Shown one piece after another: positions 35,268 through 39,236 of a stretch of 39,357 nucleotides of DNA. The DNA lies in the NCBI GenBank assembly GCA_003094555.1, contig NATW01000101.1, positions 1 to 39,357 of the forward strand. The letters are read 5' to 3'. A program made the translations under genes and the position numbers. The notes under the pieces were generated by a model. The model ran no database searches. It was not told the origin of the DNA and worked only from the letters and a program-made list of their open reading frames with translations. The first letter of the stretch is position 1. The number at the start of each line of letters is the position of its first letter. This DNA is from a gamma proteobacterium symbiont of Ctena orbiculata. GTDB taxonomy: Bacteria > Pseudomonadota > Gammaproteobacteria > Chromatiales > Chromatiaceae.

Positions 35268-35296
35268 ATTCTAAAGAGCTAATCGAAGTGGGTCAA
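35268..35296 (-). promoter_or_regulatory. Sigma-70 promoter of tRNA-Val
   Basis: On the minus strand TTGACC and TAGAAT are separated by exactly 17 bases, with the -10 box ending 19 bases before the tRNA 5' end. The GC-rich stretch after the -10 box is of the kind seen in stringently controlled stable-RNA promoters. Confidence 0.7.
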
Positions 35297-35317
35297 ACGA
35301 GTGTTTTACTTACCCCC

Positions 35318-35423
35318 GGCGGCTGACGGTTGTCTTTCTCCGTCGCCCCGAAAGCACGTCCATGTGCTGACGGGGCTAGCGCGGCATCCCTGCCGCTACT
35401 ACGAAAGACAACCGTCAGCCGCC
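35318..35423. repeat. 106-bp structured repeat, copy 1
   Basis: Outer arms of 21 bases (35318-35338 and 35403-35423) are perfect inverted complements beginning GGCGGCTGACGG. Inside are two hairpins: GCCCCG/CGGGGC with AGCAC/GTGCT above it, and GCGGCA/TGCCGC around a TCCC loop. Copy 2 at 38884-38989 has the same length and plan. TACC follows the right arm and also precedes the left arm by a few C residues in both copies, so it is part of the element rather than a target duplication. Confidence 0.85.
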
Positions 35424-35535
35424 TACCAACGTTCATATGGTTCCCCACGGACATTTTTTGAGGGATAGTAACAATTACCCGGATCACCATAAATGAATGC
35501 GAAATTTACTTCATCACATGGTGGATTTGCGTTAA

Positions 35536-35562
35536 TTCGCGGTGATTTGCGACCATTTGCGG
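35536..35562 (+). repeat. Dispersed TTTGCGG-type repeat, copy B
   Basis: The unit runs from TTCGCGGTGATTTGCG to CATTTGCGG, 64 bases before the gltX start. It differs from copies A and C at only a few bases. Confidence 0.7.
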
Positions 35563-35625
35563 CTTTCGAATCATACCGCGTCTGTTAGAATCGCGGTTTT
35601 GCAATAACCGGATTTCAGCCTGACC

Positions 35626-37038
35626 ATGACCATCCGTACCCGATTCGCGCCCAGCCCCACCGGCTATCTCCACGTGGGAGGTGCCCGTACCGCCCTCTTT
35701 TCCTGGCTCTATGCCCGCAAGCACGGGGGCAAGTTCGTGCTGCGTATCGAGGATACCGACCTGGAGCGGTCCACCATGGAGTCGGTGAATGCCATTCTCG
35801 AGGGTATGACCTGGCTCGGCCTGGAGTATGACGAAGGCCCCTTCTACCAGACCAAACGCTTCGACCGCTACGATGAGGTGATCCAGGATCTGCTGGCCCG
35901 GGGGCTGGCCTATCGCTGCAACTGCAGCCGTGAGCGGCTCGACCGGCTGCGCGATGAGGCGATGAAGAATAAGCAAAAGCCCCGTTACGACGGCCATTGC
36001 AGGGCACGGACGGTGAGTCCCGACGAACCCCATGTGATCCGTTTTCGTAATCCCGATAACGGGATCGTGGTGGTGGATGATCTGATTCGGGGCAGGGTCA
36101 GCTTCAACAACGAGGAGTTGGATGACCTGATCATCCGCCGTACCGATGGATCACCCACCTACAACCTGACGGTGGTGGTGGACGATCTGGATATGCAGAT
36201 CACCCATGTCATCCGTGGTGATGACCATCTCAATAACACCCCGAGGCAGGTCAATATTCTGCAGGCCCTGGGTACGAACCCGCCCAAGTATGGGCATGTG
36301 CCGATGATCCTGGGTGATGACGGCTCACGCTTGTCGAAGCGCCATGGCGCGGTGAGTGTGATGCAGTATCGGGAGGCGGGATTTCTCCCCGAGGCGCTGC
36401 TCAACTACCTGGTGCGTCTGGGTTGGTCCCATGGGGATCAGGAGATCTTCAGTATCGATGAGATGATCGAGCTGTTCGATATCGATGCGGTAAACAAGGC
36501 TGCCTCCAGCTTCAACACAGACAAGCTTTTGTGGTTGAATCAGCACTATATCAAGCAGGAGAGTGCAAAGCGTATTGCCCACCTGTTGAGTCCGCATATG
36601 GGGGATCTCGACATCGATCCCTCCCAGGGTCCCGATCTGGTGGCCGTGGCAGAGGCCCATCAGGAGCGTGCCAACACCCTGGTCGAGATGGCCGAGATGA
36701 GTGCCTTCTGTTACCGGGATTTCGAGACCTTTGAGGAGAAGGCCGCCAAGAAACATCTGCGTCCCGCCGCCAGGGAACCCCTGCAGCGCATGCGAGAGGC
36801 GTTGGCCAGCTTGGGTGATTGGACAGGGGAGACCCTGCATCGGGCAGTGGATCTGGTGGCTGCGGAACTGGATGTGAAGATGGGCAAGGTGGCCCAACCG
36901 CTGCGTGTGGCCCTGGTGGGGCGCGCCGCATCTCCCGGGATCGATGTGACCCTCTATCTGGTGGGGAAGGAGGCCAGTCTGCGGCGCATCGACAAGGCCC
37001 TTGAATATATCGATCAGCGTGAAGCGAATGCGGGCTGA
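35626..37038 (+). CDS. gltX: Glutamyl-tRNA synthetase
   Basis: GltX charges tRNA-Glu, or both tRNA-Glu and tRNA-Gln if non-discriminating. A glnS gene follows, so it is probably discriminating. The 470-residue length is standard. The HIGH-equivalent motif is in [18 protein letters not shown], and the KMSKS-equivalent is [13 protein letters not shown] zinc-type CNC...YDGHC set (residues about 99-127) matches E. coli GltX. The [17 protein letters not shown] and [11 protein letters not shown] strings are typical. glnS starts 38 bases after the stop and is probably cotranscribed. Confidence 0.97.
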
Positions 37039-37076
37039 TGGCGTTATGGACATAACCGAGACAAGAAGCAGAGACC

Positions 37077-38771
37077 ATGAGTAAACCCCAATCCAGCACA
37101 CCGACCAATTTTATCCGCCAGATCATCGATCAGGATCTGCAGACGGGTAAACACGATGGACGGGTGCACACCCGTTTCCCCCCCGAACCCAATGGCTATC
37201 TGCATATCGGTCATGCCAAGTCGATCGTACTCAATTTCGGTGTCGCTGAGGACTATCAGGGCCTGTGTAATCTGCGTTTCGACGATACCAATCCCCACAA
37301 GGAAAATATCGAGTTCGTGGAGAGTATCCAGGCGGATGTACGCTGGCTCGGATATGATTGGGATGAGCGTCTTTTCTATGCCTCCGACTACTTTCAACAG
37401 CTCTACGACTTTGCAGTAGAGCTGATCCGGGCCGACAAGGCCTTCGTCTGTGATCTGGATGGGGAGCAGATGCGCGCCTATCGCGGTACCCTGACCGAGC
37501 CTGGCCAGGAGAGTCCCTATCGCAGCCGTTCCGTGGAGGAGAATCTGGATCTCTTCGCGCGCATGAAAGCGGGCGAATTCGAAGACGGTGCGCGGGTGTT
37601 GCGGGCCAAGATCGATATGGCGTCGCCGAATATGAACATGCGTGACCCGACCCTGTATCGCATCCGCCACGGGGTGATCCATCATCAGACCGGCGAGGCC
37701 TGGTGTATCTATCCCATGTACGACTATACCCATCCGGTCTCGGATGCCCTGGAGGGGATCACCCACTCCCTCTGTACCCTGGAATTCGAGGATCACCGCC
37801 CCCTCTACGACTGGGTGCTGGATAACATCTCGATTCCCAATCACCCGCAGCAGATCGAGTTTTCCCGGCTCAATCTCGAGTACACCATTGTCAGCAAGCG
37901 CAAGCTCACCCAGCTGGTTGACGATGGATTCGTGGAGGGTTGGGACGACCCGCGCATGCCGACTCTGGCGGGGATGCGGCGGCGCGGCTACACGGCCGCA
38001 TCGATTCGTGAATTCTGCCAGCGTATCGGCGTCACCAAGGCGGATGGCCTGGTGGAGATGGGTATGCTGGAGAACTGTATCCGCGAGGATCTCGATGCCC
38101 ATGCGCCCAGACGCATGGCGGTGATGCATCCTTTGAAGCTGGTGATCGAAAACTATCCAGAGGATCAGAGCGAAACCCTGCAGGCGCCAAATCACCCCAA
38201 GGATGAGACCATGGGGGTACGCGAAATCGAGTTCTGTGGTGAGATCTATATCGACCAGGCCGATTTTCGTGAACAGGCGAATAAGAAATACAAGCGTTTG
38301 GTGACTGGCGGGGAGGTGCGTCTGCGCAATGCCTACGTCATCAAATGTGAAGAGGTCGTGAAGAACAACCAGGGTGAAATCATCGAGCTACGTTGTAGCT
38401 ACGATCCTGAGACCCTTGGAAAAAACCCGGAAGGACGCAAGGTCAGGGGGGTTGTCCACTGGGTGTCCGCCAGGCATGGCATCAAGGGCGAGGTGCGTCT
38501 CTATGACCGCCTCTTCAATACGGCCGATGCCGACAGGGTCGAGGAGGGAGGCAGTTTTACCGATAACCTCAATCCCGACTCCCTGCGCACCCTGACGGAT
38601 TGCTACTTTGAGCCGGCATTGGGGAGTGCCGCGGCGGGCGAGCAGTATCAGTTCGAGCGGGAAGGCTATTTCATACTCGACAGCCGCGAGGCCAGCAGGG
38701 AGGAGCCGGTCTTCAACCGCATCATCACCCTGCGTGACTCCTGGGCCAAGATCGACAAGCCTGGTGGGTGA
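37077..38771 (+). CDS. glnS: Glutaminyl-tRNA synthetase
   Basis: GlnS charges tRNA-Gln directly. The 564-residue protein has the family N-terminus [11 protein letters not shown]...[21 protein letters not shown] with its HIGH motif, FDDTNPHKE, and [32 protein letters not shown]. The KMSKS-equivalent VSKRKL is near residue 275. The beta-barrel anticodon-binding region continues to a normal C-terminus ending [13 protein letters not shown] direct GlnS implies that the cell does not need the GatCAB route for Gln-tRNA. It is the second gene after gltX. Confidence 0.97.
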
Positions 38772-38789
38772 AAAGGTGTTGGTTTCAGT

Positions 38790-38817
38790 CCGCAAATGAA
38801 CGCTAATAAACGTAAAT
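38790..38817 (-). repeat. Dispersed TTTGCGG-type repeat, copy D (reversed, diverged)
   Basis: On the minus strand the unit ends GCGTTCATTTGCGG and is preceded by TTTACGTTTATTA, matching the plan of copies A-C with more changes. It begins 18 bases past the glnS stop. Confidence 0.5.
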
Positions 38818-38883
38818 AAGTTCGAGTAAACCATATAGACTGGCTAGCTTCACTCCAGAAGAAACGAGCACTCTCTATACCCC

Positions 38884-38989
38884 GGCACCTGACGGTTGTC
38901 TTTCTCCGACGCCCCGACAGTACTTCCCTGTGCTGACGGGGCTTACGCGACATCCCTGTCGCTACTGCGAAAGACAACCATCAGGTGCC
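38884..38989. repeat. 106-bp structured repeat, copy 2
   Basis: Outer arms (38884-38904 and 38969-38989) pair over 21 bases with one G-T wobble. The inner hairpins match copy 1 in place and loop sequence. Where copy 1 and copy 2 differ in the stems, both sides change together: the outer arm GGCGGC/GCCGCC becomes GGCACC/GGTGCC, and the inner GCGGCA/TGCCGC becomes GCGACA/TGTCGC. Confidence 0.85.
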
Positions 38990-39047
38990 TACCCGCTATC
39001 ATCTGGTTTATGTAATCTATTGAATATTAGGATTTCAAGCGAACTAT

Positions 39048-39066
39048 GGTGGGGCTCTGCCCCACC
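39048..39066. repeat. GGTGGGGC/GCCCCACC hairpin repeat
   Basis: Perfect 8-base arms surround a TCT loop, the same unit type as at 31884-31902 and within 23054-23139. Confidence 0.65.
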
Positions 39067-39135
39067 AATCACCGCGAATATACGGTATAAAGCTAATTTA
39101 AAGGCTAGGCTGAGACCTAATACTATTTGCGCAAA

Positions 39136-39162
39136 TTGGCGGTGATTGGCGTCCATTTGCGG
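39136..39162 (+). repeat. Dispersed TTTGCGG-type repeat, copy C
   Basis: The unit starts TTGGCGGTGATTGGCG and ends CATTTGCGG, 75 bases before tRNA-Ala. Confidence 0.7.
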
Positions 39163-39236
39163 TTAGATTCTTTCTTGCAAGCGGGAAAAAAGCAGTGGAC
39201 AAAACTGTCATAATCCCCTAATATTCGCGGCTTTCC

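Follow-up and report, generated by a model that had tools for sequence, protein, structure and literature searches.

A dispersed three-stem repeat of the TwoAYGGAY motif family in a Candidatus Thiodiazotropha genome, with hairpin loops that may serve as paired CsrA sites

The window analysed here is the whole 39,357-nt stretch of contig NATW01000101.1 (positions 1 to 39,357; assembly GCA_003094555.1) from a gammaproteobacterial symbiont of the clam Ctena orbiculata, whose genus is taken as Candidatus Thiodiazotropha. In it, gltX and glnS lie between two copies of a 106-bp three-way-junction element, copy 1 and copy 2, referred to together as the window copies. We found that the element belongs to the TwoAYGGAY motif family (Rfam RF01731), which reads on the minus strand, that it is dispersed in many copies through this genome and its relatives, and that its two hairpins are plausible sites for CsrA. 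The features below were scored with R1, a covariance model built from 13 copies of the window's genome (G000), and with RF01731 (gathering threshold 43 bits), and were compared with the same-species genome G039 and with G019 and G006 of the same genus. Copies of subtype A extend about 30–40 bp beyond the body on each side, several of them to inverted ends like AGTGTCCGTCCAGAAAC.

35318–35423, minus strand: copy 1, three-way-junction element of 106 bp; R1 123.2 bits, with the copy itself part of the model; RF01731 38.1 bits, short of the gathering threshold; also seen in the folds
35318–35338, no strand assigned: outer arm of copy 1, pairing with 35403–35423; arms identical; a two-base difference from G019 and G006 on both arms, in G039 on one arm only
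35403–35423, no strand assigned: outer arm of copy 1, pairing with 35318–35338; from the fold and the ortholog comparison
35381–35396, minus strand: hairpin 1 of copy 1, minus-strand loop AGGGAT, of the CANGGANG type; from fold and alignment
35345–35376, minus strand: hairpin 2 of copy 1, minus-strand loop ATGGAC, of the CANGGANG type; from fold and alignment
35424–35454, minus strand: left extension of copy 1, subtype A flank ...CATATGAACGTTGGTA, common to other subtype A copies; limit approximate, by eye
35298–35317, minus strand: right extension of copy 1, GGGGGTAAGTAAAACACTCG, ending at a promoter-like site before tRNA-Val; limit approximate, by eye
38884–38989, minus strand: copy 2, 106-bp element downstream of glnS; R1 119.7 bits (the copy is in the model); RF01731 33.7 bits, below gathering
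38990–39016, minus strand: left extension of copy 2, AACCAGATGATAGCGGGTA, a piece found in opposite orientation in G039; from flank comparison
38850–38883, minus strand: right extension of copy 2, GGGGTATAGAGAGTGCTCG...TTCTGGA; limit approximate, by eye

The positions and equal length of the two copies are as an earlier note on this DNA had given them, and so are the 21-bp outer arms: all 21 positions pair in copy 1, and in copy 2 pairing is 21/21 on the minus strand (one T-G) and 20/21 on the plus strand (one C-A). The changes that the note described between the copies, GG to AC with matching CC to GT in the outer stem and G-C to A-T in an inner hairpin, are real. The TCCC loop that it took to be shared is exact in one inner hairpin, but the other loop differs between the copies (GTCCAT and TTCCCT on the plus strand). 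On both strands, and with RNA as well as DNA parameters, the folds are far more stable than dinucleotide shuffles (z −8.5 to −11.8), none of the 200 shuffles in any of the eight tests being as stable as the real fold. Neither the folds of the window copies nor the repeat family is due to chance.

The note had also pointed to a search for further copies and a covariance model as checks, and further copies are indeed present in the window's own genome and in its relatives, with pairing kept across those on which R1 was built. With blastn, 20 places including the query were found in the window's genome (22 rows, two of them the query's own arms); one of these, L013, lies at a contig end and may be a duplicate record of L005, whose right flank it shares. 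The count with R1 is at least 19 places, from 30 rows of which 11 are echoes on the palindrome's reverse strand; it is a lower bound from scoring 101 of 1355 first-look candidates. In G039 R1 gives 23 places (37 rows, 14 echoes). Over the window's genome and 38 relatives, R1 matches occur in 10 of 39; the positive genomes are 8 of the 21 in the window's genus together with G031 and G035, which belong to other families of its class. Named genomes scanned with a sequence pattern yielded 49 stretches, so that the family extends from clam symbionts to other marine bacteria; the stretches come from Ctena clam symbionts, Candidatus Thiodiazotropha endolucinida, Rheinheimera, Arsukibacterium, Marinobacter sp. 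SS21 and other Gammaproteobacteria, and 24 stretches from outside Thiodiazotropha hold 44 R1 matches. Window positions 35280–35460 had no match among plasmid and phage records.

This distribution shows that the element has spread. It is dispersed, it persists at orthologous sites over several species, at some of these it stands in opposite orientation, and a 106-bp form alternates with a 132-bp form that carries an extra 26 bp in hairpin 2. The flanks vary: subtypes B and C keep the body and have other flanks, without the ends of subtype A. The 26-bp unit (approximately ACCCCAAGGGCACTTCCTTCGGGCGC) sits at one place in hairpin 2 and is present or absent among orthologs, as in G000 C116:45432–45563 and in 132-bp copies of G039, G019 and G006; it is reversed in G019 C2:81650, and a similar unit lies outside an element in G001 C64.

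Both window copies are full-length matches to RF01731 when read on the minus strand, two further copies of the window's genome score above the gathering threshold (50.8 and 45.2 bits, one of them reported under stricter filters), and the window copies and these above-gathering copies align as one family. In the 59 copies of 106 bp the AYGGAY-type loop reads ANGGA in 52 first and 52 second loops, the second base being often G or A instead of Y. The element has in common with TwoAYGGAY the two hairpins, the AYGGAY-like loops and the outer stem; what differs is that here the motif is scattered through the genome in many copies and can stand either way round at orthologous sites. The earlier note had left open a mobile repeat family or a structured RNA, and the element is a dispersed repeat family and a structured-RNA family at once, but the link to a TnpA-REP (RAYT, REP-associated tyrosine transposase) enzyme that it envisaged is unsupported. 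Rfam labels RF01731 Cis-reg, and a table of 2010 lists TwoAYGGAY as probably RNA and probably not cis-regulatory, from human gut, gamma-proteobacteria and Clostridiales (PMC2864571). The portions of the literature covered by our search held no description of TwoAYGGAY as a dispersed repeat. An orphan RNA motif thereby gains a genomic behaviour, dispersed, multi-copy and in both orientations at the same site, together with a testable role.

Across 370 genomes of the class, surveyed under stricter filters with seven candidates scored per genome, 24 have an RF01731 match at E up to 0.001 and 15 pass gathering. At least four matches are listed in 10 of the 24 matching genomes, one of the 10 (G032, from another family of the class) owing its matches to a different repeat. 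The G032 matches were rejected as family members: they belong to a larger repeat with a similar hairpin and without an R1 match. That repeat (L032–L052) is highly uniform, has a CATGGATG hairpin and scores near the RF01731 gathering threshold (one copy reaches 43), which raises the possibility that unrelated repeats are mixed in the Rfam model.

Pairing is strongly kept across the family. Standard pairs make up 97.2% of cells in the alignment of 13 copies. Of 39 pairs, 20 are changed on both sides, where shuffles average 6.5 and none of 500 reaches as many; sliding the partner by one to three columns leaves at most five such pairs, and RNAalifold recovers the same structure without being given it. 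The earlier note read such compensation as a sign of selection on folded RNA or DNA, or of spread by a transposase that needs the fold. The pairing stands, but comparison of orthologous sites suggests template switching or something like it. In G019 the two arms at the gltX site are identical, and both have C at positions 5 and 15; G006 has the same C5/C15 and one other, non-identical position; G039 has new bases on one arm only, which leaves two unpaired positions; and the window copy has the new bases on both arms. Both flanks establish opposite orientation for five orthologous pairs: the window's glnS-side copy and G006, G000 C125 and G039, G000 C111 and G019 C4, G019 C23 and G006 C98, and G019 C24 and G006 C117. 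A sixth pair (G019 C50:84664 and G006 C52) is inverted by one flank only, and eight further inverted rows are uninformative, all coming from one double site with two mutually inverted neighbouring copies. Copy 2 is also inverted relative to a truncated remnant at the G039 glnS site, and at G019 C24 the left flank repeats the right one in inverted form, with 17 of 20 bases matching, against 7 of 20 in G006.

Together these observations show block-wise change of the arms. Between the closest orthologs, many of the differences in the stem affect one side only and some disrupt a pair, which suggests that pairing is lost at times and later becomes perfect again. Given the G039 intermediate with its two unpaired positions and the inverted glnS copy, template switching, proposed as a mutation mechanism for RNA stems in PMC8794818, may explain part of the compensatory stem changes beside selection; recombination between arms or conversion from other copies could also contribute. 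Because of this intermediate and the inversions at orthologous sites, compensation alone is no proof of selection on the fold. The family is natural material on which selection on RNA pairing could be told apart from template-switch repair of palindromes, and it counsels caution where covariation in repeats is taken as proof of RNA function.

The position beside gltX and glnS, which the note had emphasized, is true as to place but incidental as a setting. gltX was found in all 22 genomes of the genus, and of the nine in which the sequence upstream is readable, four carry an element there (G000, G039, G019 and G006) and five do not; the glnS-side copy is common to G006 and, as a remnant, to G039. 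To judge from these presences and absences, the two sites have separate histories, and the comparison of both sites across the genus gave no tie between the element and either gene. A pair of elements 3565 bp apart in G004 was ruled out as a gltX-glnS pair, gltX of that genome lying elsewhere.

The positions that do not pair are informative in another way. Orthologous copies were compared as 56 pairs with both flanks matched, from 25 sites in the genus, in which copies recur so that the pairs are not independent. Over this set the A and GGA of the loops changed in 17 of 448 cells, the N and Y positions of the loops in 81 of 220, and other unpaired positions in 117 of 1007. In the 30 pairs of two 106-bp copies the corresponding counts are 0/240, 42/120 and 48/540; in the 26 pairs with a copy of another length, N and Y changed in 39/100 and other unpaired positions in 69/467, and the A and GGA changed in 17/208. 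The difference between 0/240 and 17/208 suggests that the loops are constrained in full-length copies and have decayed in some altered ones. That GGA never changes held for 21 hand-picked pairs of 106-bp copies and not for all 56. In the junction, positions 22, 24, 27, 44, 47, 80, 83 and 85 are at least 95% constant over the 59 copies of 106 bp, and positions 23, 26, 34, 45, 46, 62, 66 and 81 are variable. Across 16 sequences from five bacterial groups neither GGA triplet varies; of the two, only the second counts as free evidence, the first being fixed by the search pattern for most sequences outside Thiodiazotropha, and for the second, covariance models that favour GGA helped to find some copies.

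The best explanation, in our judgement, is a dispersed, non-coding repeat that carries paired CsrA sites, a reading that we put forward tentatively and with somewhat less than even confidence. The body consists of a 21-bp outer stem that pairs perfectly or almost so, a junction in which unpaired G and A are conserved, and two hairpins with ANGGA(Y) loops on one strand. It would spread as a small non-autonomous mobile element, in subtype A with the body inside longer inverted ends (approximately AGTGTCCGTCCAGAAAC), and template switching across the palindrome, along with the loss of copies that have decayed, would keep its arms perfect. In a minus-strand transcript the two ANGGA hairpins would form a paired binding platform for CsrA/RsmA, acting as a decoy or as a module of an untranslated region (UTR), and loops and junction would be kept because of this platform. 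The hairpin loops carry CANGGANG, as looked for in CsrA-binding RNAs, and CsrA is encoded in the window's genome. The Rsm/CsrA consensus A/UCANGGANGU/A, given in PMC6849547, is matched by the element's loops, and CsrA binding of TwoAYGGAY has been proposed from motif matches, with Clostridia in mind, in PMC4333381. Since the loops fit the CsrA/RsmE motif CANGGANG, paired CsrA sites would be the likeliest role, and such a function is plausible and testable from the motif evidence. The element resembles CsrA/RsmA-binding RNAs in having two hairpin loops of this kind on one molecule, and differs in that its copies lie in either orientation to genes. A wider proposal, that TwoAYGGAY at large, instead of a single-site regulatory RNA, is a mobile repeat scattering double CsrA platforms, so that each genome would hold about 20 dispersed decoys or switchable UTR modules, some flipping in place, strikes us as rather unlikely.

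Several results weigh against this explanation. The 17 loop changes in pairs with a copy of another length come from about six or seven copies; two exact CANGGANG occur in only 47 of 86 copies, and three copies have AGGTAA as first loop. A loop-reading protein acting on single-stranded DNA hairpins could also hold GGA constant. The window copies themselves score below the RF01731 gathering threshold. Gene context was examined at 37 loci in three genomes (orthologs included, simple calling of open reading frames, ORFs): at 35 of them both neighbours were called, the genes being codirectional at 19, convergent at 9 and divergent at 7. There is no sense bias (7 sense and 12 antisense in codirectional contexts), and a cis role in mRNA is the less likely for it. 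At 11 of the 37 loci the element is spanned by an ORF; ten of these ORFs are of 71 to 168 codons and maybe spurious, and one is of 630 (L034). At copy 1, the only copy scanned, there is no convincing promoter or terminator of its own: the one promoter-like site immediately precedes tRNA-Val, and a single terminator-like site where 0.5 would be expected carries no weight. As to mobility, no clean target-site duplication was established at eight sites with flanks searched in seven genomes, two loci being unalignable, and the clearest empty site, taken as a candidate pre-insertion state, looks like a deletion in G000.

Alternatively, the element might be a miniature inverted-repeat transposable element (MITE) of a classical DDE insertion sequence, its three-stem body being passive cargo between ends of the AGTGTCCGTCCAGAAAC kind. 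The flanks shared by subtype A copies over some 30–40 bp on either side, several with matching inverted repeats at the ends, would fit, as would possible 4-bp target-site duplications seen by eye at two copies (AATT and AACT). Structured MITEs such as NEMIS/Correia, ERIC and YPAL are likewise intergenic, of about 100–200 bp, with long inverted repeats and strong folds (compare PMC3733652); the element differs in lacking a clear target-site duplication, and no cognate insertion sequence was found in our searches. Moreover, subtypes B and C keep the body without these ends, the end pattern at up to two mismatches has 15 hits in the window's genome (5 forward, 10 reverse) against 7 in a reversed control (3 and 4), and among one ORF examined near each of 10 of the 15 hits Pfam gave no transposase family, three matching nothing. 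No clean pair of filled and empty sites was found, and passive cargo leaves the loop constraint unexplained; we regard this origin as unlikely. The repeats could instead be functionless, neutral palindromes whose arms are perfect through template switching, by the mechanism described for RNA stems in PMC8794818. The intermediate at the gltX site, the flank copied across the palindrome at G019 C24, the opposite orientations at orthologous sites and the loss of GGA in several copies of other lengths all suit that idea. Against it stand the lower rate of change of the loop A and GGA than of other unpaired positions, the constant junction positions and the invariance of the second GGA across distant genera, and we judge it quite unlikely.

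A third account would make the element a repetitive extragenic palindromic (REP) or REPIN-type unit, moved by a Y1 (HUH) transposase that reads single-stranded DNA hairpins, with GYAG before hairpin 1 as the REP tag. Of 59 copies, 47 have GYAG directly before hairpin 1 and 15 have GTAG itself, close inverted pairs occur as in bacterial interspersed mosaic elements (BIMEs; G000 C62, G019 C2, G010 C7), and the intergenic palindromes as such recall the REP/REPIN/BIME and RAYT systems. PF01797, the Y1 transposase family, is present in all 17 other element-bearing genomes searched, a figure that covers carriers only, and hairpins with CANGGANG and at least four pairs occur in 5 of 20 Y1 regions, two of them just before the Y1 gene start. 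The check on a Y1 transposase that the earlier note had proposed nevertheless turned out negative: PF01797 is absent from the window's genome (99.96% complete, 193 contigs), and R1 at E up to 1 found no element around any of the 38 Y1 matches of the 17 carriers, which lie in 36 regions, nor did RF01731 find TwoAYGGAY in 16 of these regions. Hairpin 2 has no such tag, and a three-stem unit of 106 bp stands against REP units of 20–40 bp (PMC3733652). Movement by such an enzyme therefore appears very improbable to us.

Some neighbouring sequences deserve mention. A hairpin with CANGGANG (TGAACAAGGATGTTCA and TGAACAAGGACGTTCA) lies just before the ATG of what appears to be a Y1 transposase gene start in G039 and G006 (L287 at about 1783, L290 at about 1668), placed as a CsrA site over the start region would be. 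Near both window copies lies a second dispersed repeat, TTTGCGGTGATTTGCGACCATTTGCGG-like with a related ATGAACGCAAATAAACGC, at about 35525–35563 and 39126–39164, which by eye also occurs near several elements elsewhere. A hairpin repeat, GGTGGGGC...GCCCCACC, adjoins copy 2 at window positions 39047–39067 and has a longer version at the same site in G039. L164 (G039 C1:4137407–4138259) is a head-to-tail array of four elements with AGCC-type arms, spaced at a period of 249 bp; every one of the four has flanking repeats of its own. In Rheinheimera sp. EpRS3, L202 holds three elements in alternating orientation, with similar flanks by eye in L180, L201 and L206; the genes around them are, to judge by their translations, pyrE-, dgkA-, slmA- and dut-like.

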